DNA from: Bolinopsis microptera | Taxonomy: Eukaryota > Ctenophora > Tentaculata > Lobata > Bolinopsidae | Direction: 5' to 3' | Assembly (NCBI RefSeq): GCF_026151205.1 | Contig: NC_087074.1 | Span: forward strand, 7,357,726 to 7,421,725 | Length of the DNA: 64,000 nt | Part shown: positions 1 through 33,929 of the stretch, piece after piece | How positions within the stretch are numbered: position 1 is the first letter of the stretch | How the letters are laid out: each line of letters begins with the position of its first letter | Program-made: the position numbers and the translations under genes | The notes under the pieces: generated by a model | Told to the model about the DNA's origin: nothing | Seen by the model: the letters and a program-made list of their open reading frames with translations, nothing else | Database searches by the model: none

Positions 1-140
1 AATATAACCAACTCTTCCCCTTACGACATTATTTTACCCCCTTTCGTCGGTTCTGATGATACTATCCTGGTTGTATGAAGAGTTTAGTTATCCTTTTGTA
101 GTGATGCTATGGTAATTTAGCATGTTCGCTTCTACAATAC

Positions 141-335: not shown

Positions 336-608
336 CTGTCGATATGTCATATTAAATCACGTTGAACTGATTATAGTAATTAATTGGGTTGTGTGATACA
401 ATTATAAGGGTTATTTTGACGGTTTCTTATGTTCTCTTCCGCGATTTAGTTTTGCAGTCCCGAACCCTTTCAAGCAACCTCTAACACAATTATAATATCG
501 TTTGCTCGGGGGTCCAAGTCTCAAATACTGTATACAGTTTACCATTCTGTAGCACAGTTAATTCAAATTTAAAACACAACAATAATATAAGATTTAAAAT
601 TATCTTAC

Positions 609-704: not shown

Positions 705-2001
705 CTGGAATTATAACGCTACAACTGGAAAATCGTTGTGGAAGATAAGAAAATCGTTATTATTTAAGTAATTAAGTACAGTTCAGATATGTTACAATAG
801 CATTAGATTTAAAACAATATGTGAAAAATTAAATATCCACATATTCCACGGTTTTTCGAGGAAATTATTGCCACCCAGACTCTTGCAGTTCATGTCTTCT
901 CGTACCACGAATTTTCCTTCTTGATTCTAACTCTAAGCCCAATACTAATTCAAATTGTTATCAGTCATTAGGGCTAACGCTAAAAATTCGCCTCATCAAC
1001 AAACTATGAAGCACAATTTGTAGGTTTATAACCTACCAGGACGCGCGCCGAATTGGATCGACTCGTCGACGGTCCTAATATTTTTGGAACAAATATTTTA
1101 CGAGTATCGCCCGTTAAAGCACAATGCACATTGCACAATGCACATACGGTGTAAACTCTGCAAAATAAATATTGAACCAAAACAATTTTGAGTTTGTTTG
1201 GTAAAATAACTTTATACTGCCTATGTTCAAAATATTTTGTAAAAACATCAGTTTCTGAATTGTTAATTGTTTTAACCTTGTAGCTGAAAATGGCTTGTCT
1301 CCATGATGTCTACTACAAAATATGCAATATTTCTAAATTATAATTAGCTATTTTGCAATCCGCTATCGCCAATATGATTATAACTCTGCCTTCAGAGAAA
1401 AAATGTGATTTTATCTCATTCGGAGAACAGTAATTGATAAAATTATGACCACTTTATTAAGTTACTAGAAAACCCGTGGTCACAGGGATGAAGCTAATAG
1501 TATTTTTTGTTAATAAGTTTAAATCGCGTCAAAAACATCCTACACAACCGAAGATACAGCCGATTTGCAATTAAAATGTTGCTCGCACTAAACACAAGTA
1601 CAACGTAATATCAACAAAACTGATAAAAATGCCGTTCTAACATCTAACAATCTTTGCACGTGCACGTGCGTGTAACAACCCTCGTTACCATGGTTACTTT
1701 GCAACCTTTTGCTTTTGACCTAATTTGCACGTGGGCGGTCATACAGACAGACATTCTACAAAAAGAATCTTTTGAATTATGATATCGATAAATAACAATA
1801 TGATAACTATCCTATTATTATATCCCGTATCCTATATATGTGTTATATTATGTTAAATTACACACTTGAAATTTAGACAGAAAACACGTAATTACGAGCT
1901 TACGAGAGAATCAGCAAGGTGGTTTTATTTATAAATTAAATTTGTTGTTACTTTGTTATATTATTATATATTAAACTATAATGCTTGTTGTTGTTAGTCA
2001 C
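705..2001 (-). other. Intron of the left-edge gene
   Basis: About 1.3 kb of AT-rich sequence between the Cys-rich exon and the upstream domain exon. It holds one copy of a dispersed repeat (1019-1100). No further exon was recognised. Confidence 0.5.
1019..1100. repeat. Dispersed repeat, copy 1
   Basis: The sequence around the palindromic core GTAGGTTTATAACCTACC, then acg-gcgccga and a tail ending in gaacaaatattt, recurs at 8429-8502. Divergence is modest (for example ACGCGCGCC versus ACGTGCGCC). Family unknown. Confidence 0.6.
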
Positions 2002-2465
2002 CTGGTTGTGTTCCGTAGTAATCAGATGCTGTGTCGGAGGAATGGAAACTTATCTTTGCTACGTCTCTACTCCAGAACGTGCTCCAACTATTGTCTATAC
2101 ACGTTGTGCCTGAGAACAGGATGTTGATCACCTCCACCTCGTTACAGTGTATCACTAGTCTGACACCTGCAGTTCTGGTTAGAGTGATACGCCAAACCTT
2201 GTCAGTAGGAGAGGGGGGTTCAACAGGGAGGTTAGTCCAGGCTGTGCACCAGTTGAGTAAATATCGTGGAGTTGAGGTGAACCAGAGGTAGACTACTCCT
2301 GTATACTCTCCCCCAGCAGAGTTAAGGTGCACTACCACAATATCGTCACTCCCCAGCACACAATTAGTTTTAATTTCTAAAGGTGTCGACTCAAGATCCC
2401 ACTCTATTTCCACATCTCGCTGCACTGGTAACCAACCTGTTAATTGTATGTTTAACTCGTGACTA
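2002..2465 (-). CDS. Exon coding an unrecognised Cys/Trp-rich extracellular domain
   Basis: A 464-nt open exon (about 154 codons) between acceptor TTGCTCAG and donor CCAG|GTGACT. Visible features are LTGWLPVQRDVEIEW near the N-terminus, four cysteines (NC, NWC, IHC, TTC), KVWRITLTRTAGVRLVIHC in the second half and an acidic DTASDYY tail. The balanced strand-like hydrophobic pattern suggests a beta-rich secreted domain; I do not recognise the family. The donor phase (1) fits the next exon at 609-704. The acceptor needs a phase-2 upstream exon, so it does not join directly to the signal-peptide exon at 3229-3349. An exon may be missing between them, or the first exon belongs elsewhere. Confidence 0.55.
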
Positions 2466-3228
2466 CTGAGCAACGATTTATGTTATCATGAATTGAAGGA
2501 GGAGGTGTTCAGTGTTGTAGCAAAATTGTAAAGGAATTGCAAGAATGTCGCCAATAATTTATTCTCAGAATTTAAGGGCCCAACCATACTATGACTTTTG
2601 TCACCATGACAGTTGTCGCCATGACTGTTGTCATAGTGAGGTCAGATGTAATGCCAACAGGCACGACAGTCATGACCAGAGGTACGTAGTGTGTTTAGAG
2701 GGCGTGCAAAGGATACGTGACAACTCCTCAGGCACGTCGGGCACGTCTTTTCGTCACGATTACCTTATAAGGTCAATATTTTACGTGATATGGACATTTG
2801 CAGTACAGACTTATAGATCGAGTGCAATTGCAAAGATAGTACAGACAGATCCGCGTATCCGTCTGAAACTCGATCTACTGACACAAGATGCTTCCACGTT
2901 TTTAGGTTACATTTTTAGGTTTCAATTGGTTAAATGAGTAAAACTGTAAGTGTAACCCTAACGAAAAATTATACCAACTTCCTTATATGTTCATATCACG
3001 TGATCGTGAACTTTTTATGGTTTTGAATGCCTTTGAGCGTTCATTTTAATGTTTGTTTAAAATTACTTGTCATACGTTGTATGACCCGCCGCGCACGAAG
3101 TGCGCGGCTCCCCCTGTATAGTGAAGCGACAGTGGGGGTCACCACATGATACAAAAAATTACATGTCCGTTCACACAATGTCCGGCCAAATAACGTCCAA
3201 TAAGGTAAAGTCAAACATAGTAACATAC

Positions 3229-14039: not shown

Positions 14040-14062
14040 CAACAGGCGACGTTACGCCAATG
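14040..14062 (+). mobile_element. 3' end fragment of a hAT-like MITE at the left array boundary
   Basis: CAACAGGCGACGTTACGCC followed by AATG matches the 3' end of the MITE at 31939-32184 (CAACAGGCAACGTCACGCC then ACTG). It abuts GACCGAAG, the first 8 bases of array sequence. The same octamer lies just before the 5' end of the full MITE on the right. Confidence 0.6.
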
Positions 14063-14401
14063 GACCGAAGGGGTTCATCCTGAATTTATGTTAATCTTAG
14101 AAACGCAATAATGTGTGCGAATAAACATAGATTGAAATACTGATGTCAGCAAGCAAAGTTTAGTATTTGTATATTTGGTATTACTATATACGTTTATGAG
14201 GTCCCATCACAGATGATCGAAAGGAATTCCTGTGAATGAAATGCAACTATTGTATGTGAACACCACCCGCACACACTTTGACGCTTATCCAATATTCAAA
14301 TAAAAGCGAACCATCCCTAAAAGGGTACTTCCAATCTTAAGCTGCTTGCCTGCGGCTGAAACTTGCAACTAATACTTGACTAAACTCGACTATACTTGCA
14401 G

Positions 14402-14573
14402 AAGATTGTGTTGCGGGCCAGTTAGTTAGTATCTGGGTCAGTCAACTGGCTGTGCAGCCTGTCCGGCAGATGAATGGAGTGCTGCAGCAAACACAGCTGA
14501 TACCTGCACTGCCTGTCCAGCTGGCAAAGGGGTAGCCTCTGAGCAGGAACACAACAAAGTGATTGCACATGGA
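14402..14573 (+). pseudogene. Array exon 1, frameshifted (172 nt)
   Basis: Contains an extra TTAGTTAG (8 bases) after GCGGGCCAG and lacks one G in the GCCTCTGGAGCAGG block, net +7. Splice sites remain intact. If included it breaks the frame of all later copies, so it must be skipped, be a relic, or be misassembled. Confidence 0.8.
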
Positions 14574-17500
14574 GTAAGTTGTTGTTTCCTAAAAATTGGA
14601 GGGACCGAAGGGGTTCATCCTGAAATTTATGTTAATCTTAGAAATGCAATAATGTGTGCGAATAAACATAGACTGAAATACTGACGTCAACAAGCAAAGT
14701 TTAGTATTTGTACAATAATTGGTATTACTATACGTTTATGAGGTCCCATCACAGATGCTCGAAAGGAATTCCTGTGAATGAAATGCAACTATTGTATGTG
14801 AACACCACCCGCACACACTTTGACACTTATCCAATATTCAAATAAAAGCGAACCATCCCTAAAAGGGTACTTCGAATCTTAAGCTGCTTGCCTGCGGCTG
14901 AAACTTGCAACTAATACTTGACTAAACTCGACTATACTTGCAGAAGATTGTGTTGCGGGCCAGTATCTGGATCAGTCAACTGGCTGTGCAGCCTGTCCGG
15001 CAGATGAATGGAGTGCTGCAGCAAACACAGCTGATACCTGCACTGCCTGTCCAGCTGGCAAAGGGGTAGCCTCTGGAGCAGGAACACAACAAAGTGACTG
15101 CACATGGAGTAAGTTGTTGTTTCCTAAAAATTGGAGGGACCGAAGGGGTTCATCCTGAAATTTATGTTAATCTTAGAAATGCAATAATGTGTGCGAATAA
15201 ACATAGACTGAAATACTGACGTCAACAAGCAAAGTTTAGTATTTGTACAATAATTGGTATTACTATACGTTTATGAGGTCCCATCACAGATGCTCGAAAG
15301 GAATTCCTGTGAATGAAATGCAACTATTGTATGTGAACACCACCCGCACACACTTTGACACTTATCCAATATTCAAATAAAAGCGAACCATCCCTAAAAG
15401 GGTACTTCGAATCTTAAACTGCTTGCCAGCGGCTGAAACTTGCAGTTCTATAAATACTTGACTAAACTCGACTATACTTGCAGAAGATTGTGTTGCGGGC
15501 CAGTATCTGGATCAGTCAAGTGGCTGTCAAGCCTGTCCGGCAGATCAATGGAGTTTAGCAGCAAACGCAGCTTCTACCTGCACGGCATGTCCAGCTGACA
15601 AAGAGGTAGCCTCTGGATCAGGAACACAAGAAAGTGACTGCACATGGAGTAAGTTGTTGTTTCCTAAAAATTGGAGGGACCGAAGGGGTTCATCCTGAAA
15701 TTTATGTTAATCTTAGAATGCAATAATGTGTGCGAATAAACATAGACTGAAATACTGACGTCAACAAGCAAAGTTTAGTATTTGTACAATAATTGGTATT
15801 ACTATACGTTTATGAGGTCCCATCACAGATGCTCGAAAGGAATTCCTGTGAATGAAATGCAACTATTGTATGTGAACACCACCCGCACACACTTTGACAC
15901 TTATCCAATATTCAAATAAAAGCGAACCATCCCTAAAAGGGTACTTCGAATCTTAAGCTGCTTGCCAGCGGCTGAAACTTGCAACTAATACTTGACTAAA
16001 CTCGACTATACTTGCAGAAGATTGTGTTGCGGGCCAGTATCTGGATCAGTCAACTGGCTGTGCAGCCTGTCCGGCAGATGAATGGAGTGCTGCAGCAAAC
16101 ACAGCTTCTACCTGCACTGCATGTCCAGCTGACAAAGAGGTAGCCTCTGGAGCAGGAACACAAGAAAGTGACTGCACATGGAGTAAGTTGTTGTTTCCTA
16201 AAAATTGGAGGGACCGAAGGGGTTCATCCTGAAATTTATGTTAATCTTAGAAATGCAATAATGTGTGCGAATAAACATAGACTGAAATACTGACGTCAAC
16301 AAGCAAAGTTTAGTATTTGTACAATAATTGGTATTACTATACGTTTATGAGGTCCCATCACAGATGCTCGAAAGGAATTCCTGTGAATGAAATGCAACTA
16401 TTGTATGTGAACACCACCCGCACACACTTTGACACTTATCCAATATTCAAATAAAAGCGAACCATCCCTAAAAGGGTACTTCGAATCTTAAGCTGCTTGC
16501 CTGCGGCTGAAACTTGCAACTAATACTTGACTAAACTCGACTATACTTGCAGAAGATTGTGTTGCGGGCCAGGCTCTGGATCAGACAACTGGCTGTGGAC
16601 CCTGTCCGGTAGATCAATGGAGTGACGCAGCAAACACAGCTTCTACCTGCACGGCATGTCCTGCTGGCAAAGGGGTAGACACTGGAGCAGGATCACAAGA
16701 AAGTGACTGCACATGGAGTAAGTTGTTGTTTCCTAAAAATTGGAGGGACCGAAGGGGTTCATCCTGAAATTTATGTTAATCTTAGAAATGCAATAATGTG
16801 TGCGAATAAACATAGACTGAAATACTGACGTCAACAAGCAAAGTTTAGTATTTGTACAATAATTGGTATTACTATACGTTTATGAGGTCCCATCACAGAT
16901 GCTCGAAAGGAATTCCTGTGAATGAAATGCAACTATTGTATGTGAACACCACCCGCACACACTTTGACACTTATCCAATATTCAAATAAAAGCGAACCAT
17001 CCCTAAAAGGGTACTTCGAATCTTAAGCTGCTTGCCAGCGGCTGAAACTTGCAGTCTAATACTTGACTAAACTCGACTATACTTGCAGAAGATTGTGTTG
17101 CGGGCCAGTATCTGGATCAGTCAACTGGCTGTCAAGCCTGTCCGGCAGATCAATGGAGTGCTGCAGCAAACGCAGCTTCTACCTGCACGGCATGTCCAGC
17201 TGACAAAGAGGTAGCCTCTGGAGCAGGAACACAAGAAAGTGACTGCACATGGAGTAAGTTGTTGTTTCCTAAAAATTGGAGGGACCGAAGGGGTTCATCC
17301 TGAAATTTATGTTAATCTTAGAAATGCAATAATGTGTGCGAATAAACATAGACTGAAATACTGACGTCAACAAGCAAAGTTTAGTATTTGTACAATAATT
17401 GGTATTACTATACGTTTATGAGGTCCCATCACAGATGCTCGAAAGGAATTCCTGTGAATGAAATGCAACTATTGTATGTGAACACCACCCGCACACACTT

Positions 17501-20500
17501 TGACACTTATCCAATATTCAAATAAAAGCGAACCATCCCTAAAAGGGTACTTCGAATCTTAAGCTGCTTGCCAGCGGCTGAAACTTGCAGTCTAATACTT
17601 GACTAAACTCGACTATACTTGCAGAAGATTGTGTTGCGGGCCAGTATCTGGATCAGTCAACTGGCTGTGCAAGCCTGTCCGGCAGATCAATGGAGTGCTG
17701 CAGCAAACGCAGCTTCTACCTGCACTGCATGTCCAGCTGACAAAGAGGTAGCCTCTGGAGCAGGAACACAAGAAAGTGACTGCACATGGAGTAAGTTGTT
17801 GTTTCCTAAAAATTGGAGGGACCGAAGGGGTTCATCCTGAAATTTATGTTAATCTTAGAAATGCAATAATGTGTGCGAATAAACATAGACTGAAATACTG
17901 ACGTCAACAAGCAAAGTTTAGTATTTGTACAATAATTGGTATTACTATACGTTTATGAGGTCCCATCACAGATGCTCGAAAGGAATTCCTGTGAATGAAA
18001 TGCAACTATTGTATGTGAACACCACCCGCACACACTTTGACACTTATCCAATATTCAAATAAAAGCGAACCATCCCTAAAAGGGTACTTCGAATCTTAAG
18101 CTGCTTGCCAGCGGCTGAAACTTGCAGTCTAATACTTGACTAAACTCGACTATACTTGCAGAAGATTGTGTTGCGGGCCAGTATCTGGATCAGTCAAGTG
18201 GCTGTCAAGCCTGTCCGGCAGATCAATGGAGTTCTGCAGCAAACGCAGCTTCTACCTGCACGGCATGTCCAGCTGACAAAGAGGTAGCCTCTGGAGCAGG
18301 AACACAAGAAAGTGACTGCACATGGAGTAAGTTGTTGTTTCCTAAAAATTGGAGGGACCGAAGGGGTTCATCCTGAAATTTATGTTAATCTTAGAAATGC
18401 AATAATGTGTGCGAATAAACATAGACTGAAATACTGACGTCAACAAGCAAAGTTTAGTATTTGTACAATAATTGGTATTACTATACGTTTATGAGGTCCC
18501 ATCACAGATGCTCGAAAGGAATTCCTGTGAATGAAATGCAACTATTGTATGTGAACACCACCCGCACACACTTTGACACTTATCCAATATTCAAATAAAA
18601 GCGAACCATCCCTAAAAGGGTACTTCGAATCTTAAGCTGCTTGCCAGCGGCTGAAACTTGCAGTCTATAATACTTGACTAAACTCGACTATACTTGCAGA
18701 AGATTGTGTTGCGGGCCAGTATCTGGATCAGTCAAGTGGCTGTCAAGCCTGTCCGGCAGATCAATGGAGTTTAGCAGCAAACGCAGCTTCTACCTGCACG
18801 GCATGTCCAGCTGACAAAGAGGTAGCCTCTGGATCAGGAACACAAGAAAGTGACTGCACATGGAGTAAGTTGTTGTTTCCTAAAAATTGGAGGGACCGAA
18901 GGGGTTCATCCTGAAATTTATGTTAATCTTAGAAATGCAATAATGTGTGCGAATAAACATAGACTGAAATACTGACGTCAACAAGCAAAGTTTAGTATTT
19001 GTACAATAATTGGTATTACTATACGTTTATGAGGTCCCATCACAGATGCTCGAAAGGAATTCCTGTGAATGAAATGCAACTATTGTATGTGAACACCACC
19101 CGCACACACTTTGACACTTATCCAATATTCAAATAAAAGCGAACCATCCCTAAAAGGGTACTTCGAATCTTAAGCTGCTTGCCAGCGGCTGAAACTTGCA
19201 GTTCTATAATACTTGACTAAACTCGACTATACTTGCAGAAGATTGTGTTGCGGGCCAGTATCTGGATCAGTCAAGTGGCTGTCAAGCCTGTCCGGCAGAT
19301 CAATGGAGTTTAGCAGCAAACGCAGCTTCTACCTGCACGGCATGTCCAGCTGACAAAGAGGTAGCCTCTGGATCAGGAACACAAGAAAGTGACTGCACAT
19401 GGAGTAAGTTGTTGTTTCCTAAAAATTGGAGGGACCGAAGGGGTTCATCCTGAAATTTATGTTAATCTTAGAAATGCAATAATGTGTGCGAATAAACATA
19501 GACTGAAATACTGACGTCAACAAGCAAAGTTTAGTATTTGTACAATAATTGGTATTACTATACGTTTATGAGGTCCCATCACAGATGCTCGAAAGGAATT
19601 CCTGTGAATGAAATGCAACTATTGTATGTGAACACCACCCGCACACACTTTGACACTTATCCAATATTCAAATAAAAGCGAACCATCCCTAAAAGGGTAC
19701 TTCGAATCTTAAACTGCTTGCCAGCGGCTGAAACTTGCAGTTCTATAATACTTGACTAAACTCGACTATACTTGCAGAAGATTGTGTTGCGGGCCAGTAT
19801 CTGGATCAGTCAAGTGGCTGTCAAGCCTGTCCGGCAGATCAATGGAGTTTAGCAGCAAACGCAGCTTCTACCTGCACGGCATGTCCAGCTGACAAAGAGG
19901 TAGCCTCTGGATCAGGAACACAAGAAAGTGACTGCACATGGAGTAAGTTGTTGTTTCCTAAAAATTGGAGGGACCGAAGGGGTTCATCCTGAAATTTATG
20001 TTAATCTTAGAAATGCAATAATGTGTGCGAATAAACATAGACTGAAATACTGACGTCAACAAGCAAAGTTTAGTATTTGTACAATAATTGGTATTACTAT
20101 ACGTTTATGAGGTCCCATCACAGATGCTCGAAAGGAATTCCTGTGAATGAAATGCAACTATTGTATGTGAACACCACCCGCACACACTTTGACACTTATC
20201 CAATATTCAAATAAAAGCGAACCATCCCTAAAAGGGTACTTCGAATCTTAAGCTGCTTGCCAGCGGCTGAAACTTGCAGTTCTATAATACTTGACTAAAC
20301 TCGACTATACTTGCAGAAGATTGTGTTGCGGGCCAGTATCTGGATCAGTCAAGTGGCTGTCAAGCCTGTCCGGCAGATCAATGGAGTTTAGCAGCAAACG
20401 CAGCTTCTACCTGCACGGCATGTCCAGCTGACAAAGAGGTAGCCTCTGGATCAGGAACACAAGAAAGTGACTGCACATGGAGTAAGTTGTTGTTTCCTAA

Positions 20501-23500
20501 AAATTGGAGGGACCGAAGGGGTTCATCCTGAAATTTATGTTAATCTTAGAAATGCAATAATGTGTGCGAATAAACATAGACTGAAATACTGACGTCAACA
20601 AGCAAAGTTTAGTATTTGTACAATAATTGGTATTACTATACGTTTATGAGGTCCCATCACAGATGCTCGAAAGGAATTCCTGTGAATGAAATGCAACTAT
20701 TGTATGTGAACACCACCCGCACACACTTTGACACTTATCCAATATTCAAATAAAAGCGAACCATCCCTAAAAGGGTACTTCGAATCTTAAGCTGCTTGCC
20801 AGCGGCTGAAACTTGCAGTCTATAATACTTGACTAAACTCGACTATACTTGCAGAAGATTGTGTTGCGGGCCAGTATCTGGATCAGTCAACTGGCTGTGA
20901 ACCCTGTCCGGCAGATCAATGGAGTGTAGCAGCAAACGCAGCTTCTACCTGCACGGCATGTCCAGCTGACAAAGAGGTAGCCTCTGGAGCAGGAACACAA
21001 GAAAGTGACTGCACATGGAGTAAGTTGTTGTTTCCTAAAAATTGGAGGGACCGAAGGGGTTCATCCTGAAATTTATGTTAATCTTAGAAATGCAATAATG
21101 TGTGCGAATAAACATAGACTGAAATACTGACGTCAACAAGCAAAGTTTAGTATTTGTACAATAATTGGTATTACTATACGTTTATGAGGTCCCATCACAG
21201 ATGCTCGAAAGGAATTCCTGTGAATGAAATGCAACTATTGTATGTGAACACCACCCGCACACACTTTGACACTTATCCAATATTCAAATAAAAGCGAACC
21301 ATCCCTAAAAGGGTACTTCGAATCTTAAGCTGCTTGCCAGCGGCTGAAACTTGCAGTCTATAATACTTGACTAAACTCGACTATACTTGCAGAAGATTGT
21401 GTTGCGGGCCAGTATCTGGATCAGTCAAGTGGCTGTCAAGCCTGTCCGGCAGATCAATGGAGTTTAGCAGCAAACGCAGCTTCTACCTGCACGGCATGTC
21501 CAGCTGACAAAGAGGTAGCCTCTGGATCAGGAACACAAGAAAGTGACTGCACATGGAGTAAGTTGTTGTTTCCTAAAAATTGGAGGGACCGAAGGGGTTC
21601 ATCCTGAAATTTATGTTAATCTTAGAAATGCAATAATGTGTGCGAATAAACATAGACTGAAATACTGACGTCAACAAGCAAAGTTTAGTATTTGTACAAT
21701 AATTGGTATTACTATACGTTTATGAGGTCCCATCACAGATGCTCGAAAGGAATTCCTGTGAATGAAATGCAACTATTGTATGTGAACACCACCCGCACAC
21801 ACTTTGACACTTATCCAATATTCAAATAAAAGCGAACCATCCCTAAAAGGGTACTTCGAATCTTAAGCTGCTTGCCAGCGGCTGAAACTTGCAACTAATA
21901 CTTGACTAAACTCGACTATACTTGCAGAAGATTGTGTTGCGGGCCAGTATCTGGATCAGTCAACTGGCTGTGCAGCCTGTCCGGCAGATCAATGGAGTGC
22001 TGCAGCAAACTCAGCTTCTACCTGCACTGCATGTCCAGCTGACAAAGAGGTAGCCTCTGGAGCAGGAACACAAGAAAGTGACTGCACATGGAGTAAGTTG
22101 TTGTTTCCTAAAAATTGGAGGGACCGAAGGGGTTCATCCTGAAATTTATGTTAATCTTAGAAATGCAATAATGTGTGCGAATAAACATAGACTGAAATAC
22201 TGACGTCAACAAGCAAAGTTTAGTATTTGTACAATAATTGGTATTACTATACGTTTATGAGGTCCCATCACAGATGCTCGAAAGGAATTCCTGTGAATGA
22301 AATGCAACTATTGTATGTGAACACCACCCGCACACACTTTGACACTTATCCAATATTCAAATAAAAGCGAACCATCCCTAAAAGGGTACTTCGAATCTTA
22401 AGCTGCTTGCCAGCGGCTGAAACTTGCAGTTCTATAATACTTGACTAAACTCGACTATACTTGCAGAAGATTGTGTTGCGGGCCAGTATCTGGATCAGTC
22501 AAGTGGCTGTCAAGCCTGTCCGGCAGATCAATGGAGTTTAGCAGCAAACGCAGCTTCTACCTGCACGGCATGTCCAGCTGACAAAGAGGTAGCCTCTGGA
22601 TCAGGAACACAAGAAAGTGACTGCACATGGAGTAAGTTGTTGTTTCCTAAAAATTGGAGGGACCGAAGGGGTTCATCCTGAAATTTATGTTAATCTTAGA
22701 AATGCAATAATGTGTGCGAATAAACATAGACTGAAATACTGACGTCAACAAGCAAAGTTTAGTATTTGTACAATAATTGGTATTACTATACGTTTATGAG
22801 GTCCCATCACAGATGCTCGAAAGGAATTCCTGTGAATGAAATGCAACTATTGTATGTGAACACCACCCGCACACACTTTGACACTTATCCAATATTCAAA
22901 TAAAAGCGAACCATCCCTAAAAGGGTACTTCGAATCTTAAGCTGCTTGCCAGCGGCTGAAACTTGCAGTCTATAATACTTGACTAAACTCGACTATACTT
23001 GCAGAAGATTGTGTTGCGGGCCAGTATCTGGATCAGTCAAGTGGCTGTGCAAGCCTGTCCGGCAGATCAATGGAGTGCTAGCAGCAAACGCAGCTTCTAC
23101 CTGCACGGCATGTCCAGCTGACAAAGAGGTAGCCTCTGGAGCAGGAACACAAGAAAGTGACTGCACATGGAGTAAGTTGTTGTTTCCTAAAAATTGGAGG
23201 GACCGAAGGGGTTCATCCTGAAATTTATGTTAATCTTAGAAATGCAATAATGTGTGCGAATAAACATAGACTGAAATACTGACGTCAACAAGCAAAGTTT
23301 AGTATTTGTACAATAATTGGTATTACTATACGTTTATGAGGTCCCATCACAGATGCTCGAAAGGAATTCCTGTGAATGAAATGCAACTATTGTATGTGAA
23401 CACCACCCGCACACACTTTGACACTTATCCAATATTCAAATAAAAGCGAACCATCCCTAAAAGGGTACTTCGAATCTTAAGCTGCTTGCCAGCGGCTGAA

Positions 23501-26500
23501 ACTTGCAGTCTAAATACTTGACTAAACTCGACTATACTTGCAGAAGATTGTGTTGCGGGCCAGTATCTGGATCAGTCAAGTGGCTGTCAAGCCTGTCCGG
23601 CAGATCAATGGAGTGCTAGCAGCAAACGCAGCTTCTACCTGCACGGCATGTCCAGCTGACAAAGAGGTAGCCTCTGGATCAGGAACACAAGAAAGTGACT
23701 GCACATGGAGTAAGTTGTTGTTTCCTAAAAATTGGAGGGACCGAAGGGGTTCATCCTGAAATTTATGTTAATCTTAGAAATGCAATAATGTGTGCGAATA
23801 AACATAGACTGAAATACTGACGTCAACAAGCAAAGTTTAGTATTTGTACAATAATTGGTATTACTATACGTTTATGAGGTCCCATCACAGATGCTCGAAA
23901 GGAATTCCTGTGAATGAAATGCAACTATTGTATGTGAACACCACCCGCACACACTTTGACACTTATCCAATATTCAAATAAAAGCGAACCATCCCTAAAA
24001 GGGTACTTCGAATCTTAAGCTGCTTGCCAGCGGCTGAAACTTGCAGTCTATAATACTTGACTAAACTCGACTATACTTGCAGAAGATTGTGTTGCGGGCC
24101 AGTATCTGGATCAGTCAAGTGGCTGTCAAGCCTGTCCGGCAGATCAATGGAGTTTAGCAGCAAACGCAGCTTCTACCTGCACGGCATGTCCAGCTGACAA
24201 AGAGGTAGCCTCTGGAGCAGGAACACAAGAAAGTGACTGCACATGGAGTAAGTTGTTGTTTCCTAAAAATTGGAGGGACCGAAGGGGTTCATCCTGAAAT
24301 TTATGTTAATCTTAGAAATGCAATAATGTGTGCGAATAAACATAGACTGAAATACTGACGTCAACAAGCAAAGTTTAGTATTTGTACAATAATTGGTATT
24401 ACTATACGTTTATGAGGTCCCATCACAGATGCTCGAAAGGAATTCCTGTGAATGAAATGCAACTATTGTATGTGAACACCACCCGCACACACTTTGACAC
24501 TTATCCAATATTCAAATAAAAGCGAACCATCCCTAAAAGGGTACTTCGAATCTTAAGCTGCTTGCCAGCGGCTGAAACTTGCAGTCTAATACTTGACTAA
24601 ACTCGACTATACTTGCAGAAGATTGTGTTGCGGGCCAGTATCTGGATCAGTCAAGTGGCTGTCAAGCCTGTCCGGCAGATCAATGGAGTTTAGCAGCAAA
24701 CGCAGCTTCTACCTGCACGGCATGTCCAGCTGACAAAGAGGTAGCCTCTGGATCAGGAACACAAGAAAGTGACTGCACATGGAGTAAGTTGTTGTTTCCT
24801 AAAAATTGGAGGGACCGAAGGGGTTCATCCTGAAATTTATGTTAATCTTAGAAATGCAATAATGTGTGCGAATAAACATAGACTGAAATACTGACGTCAA
24901 CAAGCAAAGTTTAGTATTTGTACAATAATTGGTATTACTATACGTTTATGAGGTCCCATCACAGATGCTCGAAAGGAATTCCTGTGAATGAAATGCAACT
25001 ATTGTATGTGAACACCACCCGCACACACTTTGACACTTATCCAATATTCAAATAAAAGCGAACCATCCCTAAAAGGGTACTTCGAATCTTAAGCTGCTTG
25101 CCAGCGGCTGAAACTTGCAGTCTATAATACTTGACTAAACTCGACTATACTTGCAGAAGATTGTGTTGCGGGCCAGTATCTGGATCAGACAAATGGCTGT
25201 GCAGCCTGTCCGGCAGATGAATGGAGTGCTGCAGCAAACACAGCTGCTACCTGCACTGCCTGTCCAGCTGACAAAGGGGTAGCCTCTGGAGCAGGAACAC
25301 AAGAAAGTGACTGCACATGGAGTAAGTTGTTGTTTCCTAAAAATTGGAGGGACCGAAGGGGTTCATCCTGAAATTTATGGTAATCTTAGAAATGCAATAA
25401 TGTGTGCGAATAAACATAGACTGAAATACTGAAGTCAACAAGCAAAATTTAGTATTTGTACAATAATTGGTATTACTATACGTTTAAGAGGTCCCATCAC
25501 AGATGCTCGAAAGGAATTCCTGTGAATGAAATGCAACTATTGTATGTGAACACCACCCGCACACACTTTGACACTTATCCAATATTCAAATAAAAGCGAA
25601 CCATCCCTAAAAGGGTACTTCGAATCTTAAGCTGCTTGCCTGCGGCTGAAACTTGCAGTCTAATACTTGACTAAACTCGACTATACTTGCAGAAGATTGT
25701 GTTGCGGGCCAGTATCTGGATCAGTCAACTGGCTGTGGACCCTGTCCGGCAGATCAATGGAGTGCTGCAGCAAACACAGCTGCTACCTGCACTGCATGTC
25801 CAGCTGACAAAGGGGTAGCCTCTGGAGCAGGAACACAAGAAAGTGACTGCACATGGAGTAAGTTGTTGTTTCCTAAAAATTGGAGGGACCGAAGGGGTTC
25901 ATCCTGAAATTTATGTTAATCTTAGAAATGCAATAATGTGTGCGAATAAACATAGACTGAAATACTGACGTCAACAAGCAAAGTTTTGTATTTGTACAAT
26001 AATTGGTATTACTATACGTTTATGAGGTCCCATCACCGATGCTCGAAAGGAATTCCTGTGAATGAAATGCAACTATTGTATGTGAACACCACCCGCACAC
26101 ACTTTGACACTTATCCAATATTCAAATAAAAGCGAACCATCCCTAAAAGGGTACTTCGAATCTTAAGCTGCTTGCCTGCGGCTGAAACTTGCAACTAATA
26201 CTTGACTAAACTCGACTATACTTGCAGAAGATTGTGTTGCGGGCCAGTATCTGGATCAGACAAATGGCTGTGCAGCCTGTCCGGCAGATGAATGGAGTGC
26301 TGCAGCAAACACAGCTGATACCTGCACTGCCTGTCCAGCTGGCAAAGGGGTAGCCTCTGGAGCAGGAACACAACAAAGTGACTGCACATGGAGTAAGTTG
26401 TTGTTTCCTAAAAATTGGAGGGACCGAAGGGGTTCATCCTGAAATTTATGTTAATCTTAGAAATGCAATAATGTGTGCGAATAAACATAGACTGAAATAC

Positions 26501-29500
26501 TGACGTCAACAACCAAAGATTAGTATTTGTACAATAATCGGTATTACTATATGTTTATGAAGTCCCATCACCGAAGCTCGAAAGGAATTCCTGTGAATGA
26601 AATGCAACTATTGTATGTGAACACCACCCGCACACACTTTGACGCTTATCCAATATTCAAATAAAAGCGAACCATCCCTAAAAGAATCTTAAGCTGCTTG
26701 CCTGCGGCTGAAACTTGCAACTAATACTTGACTAAACTCGACTATACTTGCAGAAGATTGTGTTGCGGGCCAGTATCTGGATCAGTCAACTGGCTGTGCA
26801 GCCTGTCCGGCAGATGAATGGAGTGCTGCAGCAAACACAGCTGATACCTGCACTGCCTGTCCAGCTGGCAAAGGGGTAGCCTCTGGAGCAGGAACACAAC
26901 AAAGTGACTGCACATGGAGTAAGTTGTTGTTTCCTAAAAATTGGAGGGACCGAAGGGGTTCATCCTGGAATTTATGTTAACCCTTAAACAGCGAAGCAAA
27001 TATGTGCTTGTTAACGGCGAAGAGCACTCCATATGGACGGCCCCCATGTGACATACAATTTGGATATCGATCCTTTGGGTCACGTGGTAAGATTTTTGGT
27101 CCCGTGTCATGAAATAACGTAATAATTTTCCCGCTAATACATAAGGCATGGGCACTGTTCATAAAATTAGATCATCATTATATCCTGCAAAAGTAGAGCT
27201 ACTTTAGTATCAATAACTCAATTATGCCCGTGTAAGCTATTACACTTTTCTAAGGTTGGCTCGGATAAATTTAAATCTAGCTGTGTAGTTACAATTTGGA
27301 ATCCTAGAAAGTGACCATCTTGAAATAAAAATTAGTCTTTCATCGGTTTTACTTTATATTTGAAGATTCGATATGTGTCAAAAGTGTACTAAACATCAGG
27401 GCCTTGGCACGGTGTACTTTAAAGTTAAGCTGTGTTAACGTGATAAGCATGTTACTCATATAACTGTGTATTCTGTGTAGTATGTTCTAGGTGACACTGG
27501 TGTAATGTTTGTTGATAAAATTGTGACAAATCTCCGTATATTAAGTATAACCAAGGTGAAAGAAAACACAACATACGTTGGTCAGTTGGAGAAACATTTC
27601 AGTAAAGTCACTAGCAACAGGCATATAAGACATCAACTTTGTATATTTATGTTCATGTCTCCGTAAATCATATCTTGATCTATGACTATGATTTTATTGG
27701 AACTATGATTATGAATTTATATTTTGACTAAAACTGTCAAATTAGGTAATAAAAATACGAGGTTTTTTATTTAAAAAAGTTTTGTTTCCCCTTTTCAAAG
27801 CTTGAATATACAGCTTGTTTATCCTAAAGGTTCATTAATGAAGCTGAAAAAGCCTTACAGTGACTAACTTTTCATTTTGCTTACCGAAATTTACCTTCGC
27901 TATCGGTAAAATGAAAAATCTTTGCCTAGTCACACACAGGCGTACCGTCAGCTTGCAGCTGGACTCGCAGTATCCAAAAATTGAATTTATACTGTTTTAC
28001 AAATTGAAACACAGGATGACAAAAGTGTTCAGTAAAAATATTTTGGTGAATTATCGTCATCAATTTATTCTCATTGTTATCATCATTTCAATGAATGATT
28101 TGTTTTTTGTAATAGTAATACTAAAAGTGTAGTGGTAACAACAAAGCAAAATGGCTAGGGCTAGCAGTAGCAGTGGCAGCAGCCAGCGCTAGCAGTAGTA
28201 CATAGTAGCAGCCAGCGCTCGTTAGCGCTAACAGTAGCAGCAGCCAGCGCTCTTTGTGCTAGCACTAGCAGTTGCAGCAGCCAGTGCTCGTTGGCGCTAG
28301 CAGCAGCCAGCGCTCTTTGCACTAGCATTAGCAGTAGCCGGCGCCCGACGCTCGTTAGCGCTATCAGTAGCAGTAGCTGGCGCCCGATGCTCGTTAGCGC
28401 TAGCAGTAGCAGTAGCCGGCGCTCGTTAGCGCTAGCAGCAGCAGTAGCCGGCGCCCGACGCCCGTTGGCGCTAGCAGTAGCAGTAGCCGGCACTTGACGA
28501 TCATTACCGCTGCCGCTAGCAGTAGCAGTAGCCGGCGCTTGACGCTCATTAGCGCTGCCGCTAGCATGGTAGCAGTAGCCGGCGCTTGACGCTCATTAGC
28601 GCTGCCGCTAGCAGTAGCACTAGCCGGCGCTTGACGCTCATTAGCGCTGCTGCTGGCAGTAGCAGTAGCCGGCGCTTGACGCTCATCAGTGCTGCCGCTA
28701 GCACTAGCAGTATAAGCAGTAGCCGGCGCTTGACGCTCATTAGCGCTAGCAGAAGGAAGTGTAACTGTAAATTAGCATGACTTGCGCTAGTTATAGCGCT
28801 TACGGTAACGGCACTACTGTGCTTCATTTAACTATGAGTATGGCTGCAATAATAATTTACTTGCTTATTGCTATTTACTTTCTACTGCCACAACTTACTT
28901 ACTATACTGTTACGTTGAGCTAGCTAACGCTAATGATAGCACTAACTAGCACCTTCTAATTTACTGACGAAGCGCTCACTAACGCCGGTTCGGGTTAGCT
29001 AACGATAAATATCGCAAAATCCCAGGTTCAATTTTGACAGTTTGTGGTACTGGTAGCTACCGCTAACTATATATGGAGAATAGAATAGCGCACCCATCTA
29101 AAACTAGCGCTAACTAATTTCATTTAGCGCAAACATACTCTACCATAACCAAGGCGAGGGAAATTTAGTATCGAGAATTGAGGTACAAAGCTCCATTCTT
29201 TCTTTTTGCTTTATTGCAGAGCTTGGTCTTATTTTAGCCATGAGGCTGTGAGGTTTGAAAAATAAAATAACTTTTTCCTGGTATCTTAGAAAATAAATGT
29301 TGTGAATATGCCACAGGCTAAATCAACGGCAACAATTTCGTCCTATCATTTTATAATCGGCTCATTTCATCACAGTTTGAAATTTAGAAATATGCAGCAA
29401 TAATGGATCGTGCACACGATATTTATAACTGCGTTAATTTTGACTGATAACTTGATAAGAAACAAAACAACATTATATGCTACAAAAACAAGCGATCATA

Positions 29501-31901
29501 ATTTCAAAGAATCTCAATGATAAAATAAATAATAAACTAGTAAACATATTTCGCAACCCTGGTTGTGTCAATAGTAATACATGGATTTATTTGCCGAATT
29601 TTTGTAATAATTGTAGCCCATTTCTGTCAGTTTTTGCAAAGAAAACTTGATTGTTAAACATGGATAAATTCAAAAGACCCTAATTCACGGGTTGAAGATT
29701 TTAAACAGTTTGCACAACCAGGATTGTGATTCATTAGCAAGTTTCATAAAGCAAGAGGAGATGCACATTCTGCACCATGTGATGTTTATGGCAAATCCTA
29801 TCACCACACAGTTCACACATGCTATAAACAGCTGAAACCTTTTTGCTGTTTTTTATAGTCTTTCCCCTTACAGTTCGAGAGGCAGTCACGACACTGCTTC
29901 TTGCTTTCAACTTTCTTGGGGAAACTAATCATGCTGTTTGGGACTTCAGCTGTCCTCCGAAATTTAGGATTCCCCGTTATGTTGAATGCTGCTGTCAGGA
30001 CATGTGCTCTAACAGTCCAATGATGGGCTTTTCTATTAGCCAAGGCTTCATGAGAGATAGCACTTATTCCACCTGAATGAGTCCACTCTGATGGATTGCT
30101 TAGTTGGACGACAGTGTGGATGTTCACCCTTGTGGTGTCCAGAATGTAATACCACACGCAGTGTTTCCACTTGTTGGATTTCACCTTGGTACTGTATCGA
30201 CTGAAACAAGAACATTTGTTCATTTTGTGAAATATTTCTAAAATGTTCAGATATTATTATTATTAGTACTACTCGAGTAATACTACACATAATACACATA
30301 GTACTTTTTTAATAGGAATTTTAGTGACAATTAAACTAACCCTATCCTCTGATCCATCAAATCAGTTCCGTACTTAGTGAGGTCGTACAGCTTTCCGATC
30401 TGCATTCTGCGGCTTCTCTTTGTTATCGTCTTCTGTTACTCCTTTAAAATTAAATAGCACTGGTTTAATAACTATATTCTTGATGTTCACACGTACGTAA
30501 TGAGAAAAGTTTGTCAAAGTATCAGCTTTGAACGTAATTGAATAGATTGCAACACACAAAATAAATGGATTATTTTTACTGTCGATTTGAACTTAGCTGT
30601 AGCTGTACTATTTCAATAGAATACCAACTTCCTTGTCCATAAAGGAGAATATAAGTGCTGAGCTGCAACTCTGAAACACAAAATGTATTTTAAATTGATT
30701 GCACAATACAGTTGTTTCAAATGTAAGAATCTTTTTGTTGGCTACGAAGTGGGGATTCGCAATTTTGCAAAAAACGACATCAAACTATCAAATGAGAGCA
30801 TCTGCCGAAATTATGCCAGCTATGAATGCAAATCACACTGAAGAACAATGAAGAAGAGCGGCCGATATCACAATCACAGTAGCCGGGTTTCTTTATAGGA
30901 AGACAAATACAGGAGCAAAGCATAAATCATCGATGACAAATTACCGAATATTTTGATTCGGTTTCGTGATTCGTTAATATCAGTCACAAGAGAGAATCGT
31001 GCGCTCTCATTGGTTTTTATACTAGCGAGCATTAGCTCAAAGGTGCAACTCAATAATTGAGTTATTTGAAGCTCCTCCGATTGGATTGCAATGCGCTTTG
31101 TGACATGACATGTGATCCGCTGTCCACGTGGTGTTTACTTACCAATCAGATCACTTTAAAGTAACATATACCTAGTCGTCCAACTGGACGGTTCTCCGCT
31201 AGACATATTTAATGCAATTTTTGGCCTTTTTTTAACTAATAATTAACCATAACTATGTTAAATAATAATTTTTGTAAAAAACAGATAGTTTAGGCGATAG
31301 GTAGTGTTCTTGCCGATAGATAGCTGGCGTATCACCGGTATTGCTTATTGCTAATACATGTGGAACACAAATGGCAAAACATTGGAGTGGCACTCCACAT
31401 GGAGTGCTCTTCGCTGTTTAAGGGTTAATCTTAGAAATGCAATAATGTGTGCGAATAAACATAGACTGAAATACTGACGTCAACAAGCAAAGTTTAGTAT
31501 TTGTACAATAATTGGTATTACTATACGTTTATGAGGTCCCATCACCGATGCTCGAAAGGAATTCCTGTGAATGAAATGCAACTATTGTACGTGAACACCA
31601 CCCGCACACACTTTGACACTTATCCAATATTCAAATAAAAGCGAACCATCCCTAAAAGGGTACTTCCAATCTTAAGCTGCTTGCCTGCGGCTGAAACTTG
31701 CAACTAATACTTGACTAAACTCGACTATACTTGCAGAAGATTGTGTTGCGGGCCAGTATCTGGATCAGTCAACTGGCTGTGCAGCCTGTCCGGCAGATGA
31801 ATGGAGTGCTGCAGCAAACACAGCTGATACCTGCACTGCCTGTCCAGTTGGAAAAGGGGTAGCCTCTGGAGCAGGAACACAACAAAGTGACTGCACATGG
31901 A
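14402..31901 (+). CDS. Modular protein: 25 tandem six-cysteine ephrin-receptor-like (GCC2/GCC3-type) exons
   Basis: Each intact exon begins AA and ends A, so it is phase 1-1 and splices to any other copy as Trp-Lys-Asp-Cys. The 55-residue module reads DCVAGQYLDQSTGCAACPAD then EW-SAAANTADTCTACPAGKG and VASGAGTQQSDCTW. Cysteines are at 2, 14, 17, 32, 35 and 52 (C-x11-C-x2-C-x14-C-x2-C-x16-C), the pattern of ephrin-receptor-like/TNFR-like extracellular modules. Twenty-one copies are exactly 165 nt and open (about 1,155 residues); copies 1, 7, 17 and 18 are out of frame. Interior copies carry substitutions such as SSGCQACPADQWSLAAN and ADKE. The array likely forms an extended extracellular stalk or recognition region. 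It is followed in phase by a sushi exon at 32309. Anchoring and partners are unknown. Confidence 0.82.
17625..17790 (+). pseudogene. Array exon 7, one-base insertion (166 nt)
   Basis: Reads GGCTGTGCAAGCCTGT where other copies have either GGCTGTGCAGCC or GGCTGTCAAGCC. The extra base shifts the frame after the second cysteine. The rest is a normal copy with good splice sites. Confidence 0.8.
23005..23171 (+). pseudogene. Array exon 17, two one-base insertions (167 nt)
   Basis: Carries GTGCAAGCC (as in copy 7) and AGTGCTAGCAGC, where other copies have AGTGCTGCAGC or AGTTTAGCAGC. The correct frame meets a stop (TAG) at the second site. Confidence 0.8.
23544..23709 (+). pseudogene. Array exon 18, one-base insertion (166 nt)
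   Basis: Carries AGTGCTAGCAGC, apparently combining the GTGCTGCAGC and GTTTAGCAGC variants. The shifted frame runs into TGA inside the exon. Confidence 0.8.
27163..28151. other. Left interior of the piggyBac element
   Basis: AT-rich sequence. The only sizeable frame (27860-28132, +) has no recognisable domain. No transposase exon was seen here. Confidence 0.5.
28152..28750. repeat. GC-rich minisatellite inside the piggyBac element
   Basis: Degenerate tandem units built from GCTAGCAGTAGCAGTAGC, CGGCGCTTGACGCTCATT and AGCGCTGCC, about 45-55 bp per unit, more regular toward the right. It contrasts with its AT-rich surroundings. Alanine/Ser-rich and Leu-rich frames here are repeat artefacts. 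Confidence 0.85.
28751..29733. other. Middle interior of the piggyBac element
   Basis: AT-rich sequence with scattered tagcgctaac-type short repeats (about 28790-29130). It is downstream of the transposase stop on the minus strand. No gene recognised. Confidence 0.5.
29734..30200 (-). pseudogene. piggyBac-like transposase, last exon with C-terminal Cys-rich domain, frameshifted
   Basis: After acceptor TTGTTTCAG the frame reads RYSTKVKSNKWKHCVWYYIL, DTTRVNIHTVV and later KKQCRDCLSNCKGKDY. This is the family's conserved block before the C-terminal zinc-binding domain. A homopolymer A6 then shifts the frame. In the next frame the domain continues as VYSMCELCGDRICHKHH and ends HLLLLYETC before TAA (29734-29736). 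The C-x2-C...C-x2-C-x4-C-x2-H spacing matches piggyBac C-terminal cysteine-rich domains. The break may be a real mutation or a homopolymer error. Confidence 0.78.
30341..30432 (-). pseudogene. piggyBac-like transposase exon with KYGTDLMDQ motif
   Basis: Reads GKLYDLTKYGTDLMDQRIG and ends at donor GG|GTTAGT, phase 2, joining the last exon (GG+T = Gly, then RYSTKVK). The Y-x-x-TK-G-x-D-x-x-D block is diagnostic for piggyBac/PGBD transposases; its Asp residue belongs to the catalytic core. An in-frame stop lies just before the acceptor AACAG, so the 5' edge is the splice site. Confidence 0.72.
30609..30670 (-). pseudogene. Possible upstream transposase exon remnant
   Basis: After acceptor GTGTTTCAG the frame reads ALIFSFMDKEVGILLK then a stop. 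This resembles the W-x-DK-x-x-V-x-x-LS segment that precedes the KGGVD block in piggyBac transposases. The donor and phase to the next exon are not clean. The 750 bp between here and the element end shows no catalytic N-terminal region. Confidence 0.4.
30671..31400. other. Right interior of the piggyBac element
   Basis: No open frame with transposase features. It probably contains the 5' leader or promoter of the transposase, if transcription runs leftward from the right end. Confidence 0.35.
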
Positions 31902-31938: not shown

Positions 31939-32184
31939 CAGTGGTGTAATGAAGGTCCCGCTGACCCGCTGTGCGTGGGGGGGATGGGTGTTTTAATGTG
32001 AGAAAATTTTGAAAATCTAAACAGCGGTACCAGCAAACCTGCGTGGTTTGCTCTAGTGGTTTGCTCTAGAACCACACTTTTTTAGAGATTTTACCTGTGT
32101 ACCCTCTAAAATCACATAATTGTTCAATTTTAGGGAGGGGCGCCAAAAGGGGAGGAGATGCCAACAGGCAACGTCACGCCACTG
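31939..32184. mobile_element. hAT-like MITE, 246 bp, at the right array boundary
   Basis: Ends CAGTGGTGTAATG and (complement of the right end) CAGTGGCGTGACG, imperfect inverted repeats of the hAT type. No coding capacity. It is preceded by GACCGAAG (31931-31938) but followed by AATGATTT, so its own flanks do not form an 8-bp target duplication. The missing partner octamer follows the related fragment at 14040-14062. Confidence 0.65.
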
Positions 32185-32308: not shown

Positions 32309-32503
32309 TTATAAGCTGCAGTGGACTAAAGGCTGAGTGGACGGGTACGTTCGAAACGACGGAACAGTTCCCAGTACCACCAGGAACCGTGGTGGAAGTG
32401 ACATGCTCGAACTTTGGAGCTCTCAACAAAGGGAGCAGTGAAGTTACCTGCAAATCCGGGAATGATTTCAATTATGTAAAGGAGCTTAGTTGTTCAAGGC
32501 CAG
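32309..32503 (+). CDS. Sushi (CCP) domain exon downstream of the tandem array
   Basis: A 195-nt phase 1-1 exon, acceptor ATCATGCAG, donor CCAG|GTATAA. It reads ISCSGLKAEWTGTFETTEQF, PGTVVEVTC, LNKGSSEVTC and ELSCSRPG, with four cysteines as in CCP modules. It splices in phase with the last array exon (A+TT = Ile). It is the same length and phase as the exon at 141-335 and clearly paralogous, so the left-edge gene and the array gene belong to one modular family on opposite strands. Confidence 0.75.
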
Positions 32504-33929
32504 GTATAAAATATAAATATCATACATATTTGCTTCAGGTTAATGCAATGCAAGAACTGACACTTGTACATTTATTGCATGACAGCGTTAACAAGATTTG
32601 GGTATAACACGGTTCACATATTTCACATATTTCACATATTTCATTCACATATTTCATCAAACTACCACTCCCAGCGAGTTATTGCCCATCGCGGTCGAGA
32701 GCTGATGTTACGATTGATGACCGTCCGAATAAACCATTACAACTTTTTTATATCTTTAACTAAGATATCCTTTTCTTTATAATAAGTAGGTTGACTTAGA
32801 TCCCAAAATTTAACACAACAAAATTCTATAATCGACAACGTACTTTATACGAACACATATACGTTGTATTGTAATTATTTTCACGATATACGATACAGAC
32901 TCAATAAAAAGGAGCAGCAGACTGCAAGACACCGTTCAAATGACAAGAAGGACTTGGTTCACAATGAGAACAGTTATCGATAACAGCTACATACCAGGTT
33001 TATAAGTTTGAAACGATTTTAGGTTGTGATAAACTCTTAGTAGTGTATATACTGTATGGGTTTGATCATTGTTAATGGTCTGGCCCGGCGCGCGCTACTT
33101 CGTAGCACTTGCCATCGGCTACTTCGAAGAAATTTATACGAGTAACATCCGTCAATGTATGGGTATATAGTATATAGTATAAAGTATGTGCTCATTCTAA
33201 AAATGATTTAATGATGATTATCTGACATGAGCTACAAGATAGTTCACATTTTTTTACAAAAACCCATAATATAAGCGTGGAATAATCTCCGGATAAAAAT
33301 ATTGTAGTAAAAAATATATTTTTTCAAATCAATAATTTCAGTAAAAAAATCATAGAAATGGCACTAGTCGACAGCCGAAGCAGCTTTAATATTTCAAAAC
33401 TTCCTACTATAAAAAGGCATCAGCACTGATAGATAAACTAGCTTGCACAGGTAATCTCGTGGTTTATATGGTCAAGGTTTCAGTTGAACTGATATGCATT
33501 GTTTATTCATTTCTTATTTTGTGAGTTATCTGATTTACAGGTTTCTTTCCATATCACTTTAAAATATTTGACAAAGTTACCATATTCTACATTCGGAACA
33601 TTTTGAGCTCTGAGGTGGTGTACATTGTATAAAAAATGTTTGGTGCTCAGAACGGTACAAGAACAAAGTCTGCAAATGAGCAAAGTCCCACAACTTGGCA
33701 TGACATAGAGGACACAGGGAGTAATATGATAGATCGTTTGGCTGACTTTCATTTTATGATAGATATTGATAGTGGATTTACATTTTACAGTTTATTTTCT
33801 TTTATATTTTGTCGATAAGAAAATACGTTCTTTGCTCCTTTATAATCATATATGTTATTATAACGTTGATACTTTAAATGCGTTTTTGCACCATGAATAT
33901 AATACAATCGTTATCATCACTCTTCTCAG
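32504..33929. other. Probable intron after the sushi exon
   Basis: AT-rich. It contains a short cacatattt tandem repeat near 32612-32655 and a GC-rich patch near 33085-33115. No transmembrane exon could be identified with confidence, so whether the protein is secreted or anchored is unresolved. Confidence 0.4.

Follow-up and report, generated by a model that had tools for sequence, protein, structure and literature searches.

A tandem array of symmetric exons

The stretch of DNA analysed here (the window) comprises 64,000 nucleotides of chromosome 3 of the ctenophore Bolinopsis microptera (assembly GCF_026151205.1, contig NC_087074.1, positions 7,357,726 to 7,421,725, forward strand). Its principal element is an array of 25 exons, each encoding the same type of six-cysteine module, which is followed by an exon encoding four cysteines. 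This array may represent the expanded module region of a gene that belongs to a large ctenophore family scattered over the genome. The features that concern the array and its family are the following, in coordinates of the window.

14062..14401, plus strand: partial unit bordering the array on the left; intron sequence only, unit positions 194-540
14402..26918, plus strand: module exons 1 to 24, phase 1-1; copies 1, 7, 17 and 18 frameshifted, the other 20 open
Exon starts, copies 1 to 12: 14402, 14944, 15484, 16018, 16553, 17089, 17625, 18162, 18700, 19239, 19778, 20317
Exon starts, copies 13 to 24: 20855, 21393, 21928, 22467, 23005, 23544, 24083, 24619, 25157, 25693, 26228, 26754
26977..31428, no strand assigned: piggyBac-like insert of 4,452 bp, lying in the intron that separates copy 24 from copy 25
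31737..31901, plus strand: module exon 25, open; 98.8% identity to copy 2
31939..32183, plus strand: short element, read by eye, whose ends are CAGTGG..CCACTG; it lies in the gap from module exon 25 to the four-cysteine exon
32314..32505, plus strand: four-cysteine exon, phase 1-1; limits set by eye from the splice signals, sushi-like by eye
1997..2482, minus strand: open frame of the N-terminal exon of a second family member, phase 1-1; ACAG/GA acceptor and CCAG/GTGA donor by eye
136..338, minus strand: four-cysteine exon of this second, oppositely oriented family member

The module exon is present 25 times on the plus strand, with 24 copies head to tail (14402-26918) and one further copy at 31737-31901. 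Spacing from exon to exon among the first 24 copies is 526-542 bp, with introns of about 375 nt. An earlier reading of the window, made from its sequence only (the sequence-only reading), had described 25 tandem exons of 165 nt; the count is right, but the tandem run is interrupted between copies 24 and 25 by the 4,452-bp insert, and the length holds, exactly and with an open frame, for 21 of the 25 copies, whereas copies 1, 7, 17 and 18 measure 172, 166, 167 and 166 nt and are frameshifted. As that reading had stated, splice signals and phase are uniform: the acceptor acttgcag/AAGA and the donor TGGA/gtaagttg are kept in 25 of 25 exons, and the frame AA/GAT TGT ... TGG/A makes every one of them phase 1-1. 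The intact copies would together encode the 1,155 residues that had been foreseen (21 x 55), and an array of phase 1-1 exons supports the idea that the frame is kept when copies are added, lost or left out in splicing.

Exon identity to copy 2 ranges from 89 to 100% across the array which, together with the recurrence of the unit on other chromosomes, excludes a chance origin of the repeats. In copies 7, 17 and 18, three of the four that are frameshifted, the surplus bases sit precisely at positions that distinguish two exon types, so that these exons read as mixtures; such chimaera-like junctions could be the result of true recombination or of consensus error. The boundaries of the array lie at near-equal positions of the unit, 194 on the left and 202 on the right, and element ends of the CAGTGG...CCACTG type, read by eye, adjoin both edges. 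The insert between copies 24 and 25 is bounded by TTAA on either side and carries terminal inverted repeats of 16 bp (CCCTTAAACAGCGAAG), the ends that characterise piggyBac elements. The only frame tried within it (143 amino acids, minus strand, 29825-30253) had no Pfam match at E<0.1, and part of its interior (28168-28747) consists of degenerate tandem repeats rich in GCTAGCAGTAGC.

Identity of the module

The cysteine spacing of the module is C-x11-C-x2-C-x14-C-x2-C-x16-C, with CP motifs, and the six cysteines are invariant, in agreement with the six-cysteine module first described. Spacing and CP motifs are shared with the Ephrin_rec_like / GCC2-GCC3 and TNFR-like modules. With a query of three identical modules joined, in which scores are summed, PF23091 (ELAPOR1 TNFR-like) reached 52.4 bits against a cut-off of 33.2 and PF07699 (Ephrin_rec_like) 32.0 against 23.1, and TNFR_c6 fell just below its cut-off (28.5 against 29.4). 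No solved structure matched the module in sequence at E<=1. The structure model of the module is weak (pLDDT 62), and Foldseek with this model gave 8 matches, the first three being TNF-receptor entries (4-1BB, 4-1BB and OX40), with E of 3 to 8. To our knowledge, no comparable 25-copy single-exon array of such modules exists in other animals.

A family dispersed over the chromosomes

The unit of about 540 bp, exon plus intron, occurs on nine chromosomes besides chromosome 3, and a protein search of the genome with the module gave at least 150 matches (the best 150 of 490 candidates). Our genome counts are taken from the best-scoring candidates (150 for the protein and exon searches, 40 of 356 for the intron search) and are thus lower bounds. 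The stretches examined hold 25 full copies of the exon in the window, 9 on chromosome 4, 10 on chromosome 13, 24 on chromosome 10, 5 on chromosome 2, 6 and 5 at two sites of chromosome 12, 3 on chromosome 11 and 2 each on chromosomes 1, 8 and 5, and two other stretches of chromosome 4 hold 24 more; copy number in these stretches thus differs from 2 to 25 per site within one genome. Among the best 40 of 356 candidates, six introns of chromosome 4 match the copy 2 intron of the window with 100% identity over 375 bp. Sequence is also shared around the arrays: those of chromosomes 1 and 8 sit in a common stretch of about 8.2 kb (93-99% identity), and chromosome 13 shares about 300 bp on either flank of the array (97-99% identity). 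The block of chromosomes 1 and 8 (384-8608 of stretch L034 and 1301-9659 of stretch L035, in reverse-complement coordinates), of which both left ends read TTAAGGTTAACC, holds the module array, repeats of about 600 bp and a short-period minisatellite, and may be a mobile block or one that arose by segmental duplication.

Symmetric exons in tandem whose introns are nearly identical would also be expected of a Dscam-like cluster, in which mutually exclusive splicing puts a single module exon into each transcript. We hold this to be very improbable, since phase 1-1 exons need no exclusion and the sites with two or five modules fit serial inclusion.

The exon at 32314-32505 is probably the next exon downstream of the array, and its relatives are spread through the genome. 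It had been called a sushi module; four cysteines and the right phase are there, but the label is one given by eye, and a search for Sushi/CCP (PF00084) found no Pfam match in this exon at E<1, nor did a repeat search at E<0.1. An N-terminal exon of about 160 residues, represented in the window by the second family member, has relatives on all 13 chromosomes, with at least 150 matches in the genome (the best 150 candidates). Neither it nor the four-cysteine exon of the window has a Pfam match; for the N-terminal exon no Pfam family was found at E<1 with two proteins, and its structure model is useless (pLDDT 37.6). A four-cysteine exon lies within 15 kb downstream on the same strand for 87 of the 150 N-terminal exons listed, against 9 in any other arrangement, and an N-terminal exon lies upstream of 79 of 93 four-cysteine exons (the first 93 of 149). 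The N-terminal exon was found upstream of modules at five sites (L032 on chromosome 12, chromosomes 1, 8 and 5, and, in part, chromosome 11), and at none of the remaining sites within the short flanks examined.

One relative that looks complete is that of chromosome 12 (L032), in which a signal-like exon is followed by the N-terminal exon, then by five module exons and a four-cysteine exon, each joined to the next in phase 1; the same joining is read in the window for the modules and the four-cysteine exon. The signal-like exon, MLKLFSFLFLVGTASADTND with donor G/GTAAGAA, comes from a hydrophobicity scan, not a signal-peptide program, and the scan found no such exon in stretch L053 of chromosome 13 and weaker candidates in other stretches. 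With the six invariant cysteines, this exon makes it probable that the product is extracellular, as had been proposed.

The array of the window shares with the family the four-cysteine exon downstream in phase 1, but departs from it upstream, where no plus-strand N-terminal exon is found in the 14.4 kb within the window or in 9.9 kb beyond it (L039). The array may therefore be truncated, or its first exons may be farther away or diverged; the interpretation first given to the array is supported in part (frame-neutral gain and loss, a probably extracellular product, copy numbers that differ between sites of the genome), with the lack of a first exon as a point against it. This absence, over about 24 kb, is what one would expect if the array were a non-functional or truncated offshoot without 5' exons, its blocks of units having spread as passengers of segmental duplication or transposition. 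The stretches common to chromosomes 1 and 8 and the flanks shared by chromosome 13 point the same way, as do the frameshifts in 4 of 25 copies, the transposon-like insert of 4.4 kb inside the array and the decay of related arrays on chromosome 4. We nevertheless find such an origin rather doubtful, for 21 of the 25 copies are open, splice borders are uniform and the four-cysteine exon follows in phase; no cysteine codon is changed in 19 units of the window; three of the four broken copies look chimaeric between two exon types; and the insert sits within an intron.

Exon and intron divergence

In the window, exon diversity is 0.050 and intron diversity 0.007-0.011 (19 units in one calculation). 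The same contrast appears on chromosome 13 (nine units, 0.038 versus 0.003) and across eight arrays represented by one unit each (0.103 versus 0.032). Between stretches, exons differ more than introns in 79 of 91 comparisons, or 57 of 66 without the decayed stretches, these comparisons not being independent. In the pair that we chose as the most striking, unit 2 of the window and unit 2 of chromosome 4, 16 of 165 exon positions differ and none of 375 intron positions (Fisher p = 3.4e-9), and in 3 of the 12 altered codons more than one base is changed (two or three).

For comparisons of intact units we used open exons of 165 nt with the next unit within 640 bp, the set on which nonsynonymous and synonymous differences were also computed. 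It holds 66 of 92 units; the 26 left out are the 20 units of stretches L037 and L038, 4 of 23 in the window, and one each in L025 and L035. Among the 2,145 pairs of these 66 units, those with introns at most 0.5% different have a mean exon difference of 3.0%, which rises to 9.1% and 12.7% where introns differ by 2-4% and 4-8%.

Stretches L037 and L038, which lie within positions 3416000-3459900 of chromosome 4, hold decayed module arrays and offer a natural neutral comparison. None of their 20 units is intact, against 66 of 72 elsewhere, and their exons and introns show little contrast (0.184 versus 0.153, 20 units). As the introns there are nearly as varied as the exons (intron versus exon, 0.133 versus 0.137 and 0.164 versus 0.162 in the decayed stretches), we find no support for the possibility that introns are conserved for a function of their own.

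Selection and recombination

The proportion of nonsynonymous differences (pN) exceeded that of synonymous differences (pS) in 48 of 55 comparisons between stretches and was below it in 6. Thus, pN and pS were 0.054 and 0.000 between chromosomes 4 and 13, and 0.107 and 0.021 between chromosome 1 and the window; an opposite case is that of chromosome 2 and one chromosome 12 site (C12a), with 0.119 and 0.170. The cysteines take no part in this variation. In a spanning network of the exons the most changed positions of the module are 3, 11, 12, 15, 21, 30, 38, 40 and 45. Zero amino-acid changes fall on the cysteines in that network, and at the first two positions of their codons none of 228, 108 and 192 cells in three live groups differ from copy 2 (0 of 528), versus 19 of 240 in the decayed stretches of chromosome 4. 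Live exons thus look constrained at the cysteine scaffold and varied elsewhere, and the introns give no impression of being conserved in their own right. A repeat without coding function is not favoured for the live arrays, in which frames, splice borders and cysteines are kept, all of them lost in the decayed arrays of chromosome 4. Window exons also recombine, as judged from four-gamete pairs (19 of 66) and a minimum number of recombination events (Rmin) of 3 with 21 of the 25 copies used.

Taken together, the contrast between exons and introns, the excess of pN over pS and the control provided by the decayed arrays lead us to infer selection for varied modules. The pattern is suggestive of exon diversification by selection in one group of arrays; it is not proof.

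Several observations weigh against this conclusion. The contrast is reversed on chromosome 10 (16 units, exon 0.013 versus intron 0.033) and, of 10 stretches taken singly, only 4 have exons that vary more than their introns (the window, L026, L031 and, barely, the decayed L037), the other 6 having exons that vary less. Intact exons are identical within the chromosome 4 array and within the chromosome 2 array. On the spanning network, the ratio of nonsynonymous to synonymous substitution rates (dN/dS) reaches 1.74 (p = 0.037) in the arrays of the window type and 1.42 (p = 0.059) over all 34 exon types. The window by itself gives 1.68 (p = 0.19), and chromosomes 10 and 2 together with the other chromosome 12 site (C12b) give 0.83 (p = 0.76). 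Finally, in 39 of 55 comparisons between stretches pS is higher than the divergence of the introns, which indicates that introns are younger than exons and not merely that amino acids change faster. The assembly itself must also be considered, as it was built with wtdbg and then corrected by Pilon polishing with Illumina reads (PMC10232365), and the authors of a study of spider silk genes restricted the use of Pilon because short-read polishing can falsely homogenise repeats (PMC9779670). Polishing could have made the introns of the array more alike than they really are.

It may be argued that the contrast is mainly technical or mechanical, a product of polishing or of exchange limited to exons, for instance with spliced cDNA, and involves no selection for diversity. 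Exon-limited exchange would place old exon variants in units with young introns, as the excess of pS over intron divergence suggests, and the extra bases at the type junctions of copies 7, 17 and 18 do look chimaeric. Polishing explains less well, however, that the contrast is present, if weaker, at intron differences of 2-8%. The decayed stretches show little contrast, and an excess of pN over pS is not what exchange limited to exons would produce if it were neutral. We therefore judge an explanation of this kind to be clearly unlikely.

Possible role of the array

Our preferred reading, which we put forward tentatively, is that the array is the module block of a family member whose varied modules bind non-self or environmental surfaces, in recognition or capture; the N-terminal exon missing upstream of the array counts against it. 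The family protein, secreted or at the cell surface, would consist of a signal peptide, an N-terminal domain of about 160 residues, one or more six-cysteine modules (up to 25) and a four-cysteine module. As its exons are in phase 1, unequal crossing-over or exon skipping would alter its length and leave the frame intact. Exchange between units, within and between chromosomes, would keep introns young and similar, and selection would maintain variety among the residues that the modules expose, with the scaffold of cysteines fixed, in the window and in related arrays. The likeliest use of such a protein might be the binding of varied non-self or environmental surfaces, be it in immune recognition or in the capture of prey or microbes, to which modules in series would lend avidity and reach. 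A fixed scaffold, varied positions, serial modules and the signal-like exon of a relative all fit an extracellular binding protein. One might speculate further that the arrays form a chromosome-wide store of exchangeable, frame-neutral recognition modules, whose units would move and recombine between chromosomes with the introns serving as shared recombination handles, selection keeping the modules varied, and each animal carrying, and perhaps splicing, a particular set of surface proteins with several modules; we hold this extension to be improbable.

The architecture is accounted for almost equally well by a structural or adhesive role. The product might be a silk- or glue-like protein, that is, a long disulphide-rich secretion (colloblast adhesive, mucus or matrix) in which the number of modules sets the length, and unequal exchange might keep the introns of the repeats alike, as it does in the silk genes of spiders. 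There, the iterated introns of Argiope MaSp2 are 94.3-99.7% alike within the gene, and flagelliform silk has repetitive, homogenised introns too (PMC9779670). Candidate genes of ctenophore colloblasts are enriched for terms of secretion and membrane recognition, including sushi/SCR, and for signal peptides (PMC6278862), an enrichment that makes a prey-capture adhesive a serious rival, and the identical intact exons of the chromosome 4 and chromosome 2 arrays are in keeping with it. On the other hand, the six-cysteine module contains no low-complexity sequence, the exons of the window array vary more than its introns, and at least 150 dispersed matches of the N-terminal exon are many for a bulk material. 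We consider a structural protein somewhat unlikely on balance, and recognition or capture by varied modules remains the reading that we prefer. These explanations are not mutually exclusive, and the probabilities that we attach to them do not sum to one.

Whatever its use, a family with frame-neutral arrays is a concrete place to test whether ctenophores use variable extracellular proteins. It also makes testable how coding diversity survives while introns stay alike, with the decayed arrays of chromosome 4 as a built-in neutral comparison.

Other features of the window and the genome

The N-terminal exons provided one further case of uneven divergence. Between stretches L051 (chromosome 6) and L053 (chromosome 13), pN is 0.131 and pS 0.061, with 5 differences in 266 positions of the downstream intron. 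We make no claim of an exon-over-intron contrast at these exons, as the other five of six pairs have pN/pS of 0.47-0.95 and several flanks are unaligned.

Four single long frames of the window encode rhodopsin-type receptors, with Pfam 7tm_1 above the cut-off:

7153-8232, minus strand
39514-40416, plus strand
44542-45738, plus strand
46086-47201, minus strand

The frames at 7153-8232, 44542-45738 and 46086-47201 match one another in tblastn. In the genome, many matches to ionotropic glutamate receptors likewise take the form of single long open frames, several of more than 900 amino acids. A glutamate-receptor fragment of the genome has Mnemiopsis ML032222a as its first match in the PDB, followed by 4zdm, both of them ctenophore proteins, whereas the best 60 matches of a full-length query included no ctenophore name. 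A frame at 4785-5168 (minus strand) matches PLAC8 below threshold (22.4 versus 34.4 bits), and positions 4368-5487 are 92.7% similar to 821-1951 of L039, just outside the window. Two minisatellites are present, one of about 82 copies of the 15-mer TTATAGCGAGGTGCG at 11411-12637 and one of about 43 copies of the 8-mer TTACCTGG at 61932-62281.

Comparison with known systems

In the literature that we searched, by titles and the openings of abstracts, we recognised no description of this module-array family. A survey of immune-receptor domains in ctenophores reports large expansions of other domains, and its main text contains neither 'ephrin' nor 'GCC2', with 'sushi' appearing twice and 'TNFR' once (PMC11797021).

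For iterated introns that are homogenised, spider silk genes are a clear precedent. Those of Argiope MaSp2 and the flagelliform spidroins are likewise made of iterated exon-intron units with homogenised introns, within-gene expansion and exchange between paralogs (PMC9779670). Within-gene homogenisation of introns is found in the window as well (divergence 0.007-0.011, to which polishing may contribute). Silk exons, however, are homogenised fibre repeats, whereas the ctenophore array encodes a six-cysteine module, has exons more varied than its introns, and shares its units between chromosomes.

In-frame exon repeats that change in copy number are also known from the kringle-IV array of LPA and the SRCR array of DMBT1, which are single vertebrate genes with other modules; the ctenophore family differs from them in consisting of several dispersed arrays. 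The Dscam clusters, in which tandemly duplicated exons are spliced in a mutually exclusive manner, share with the ctenophore array the tandem duplication of exons. Tandem arrays of frame-neutral exons are already known, and what is new here is the family itself, its spread between chromosomes and the variation of its exons over that of its introns.

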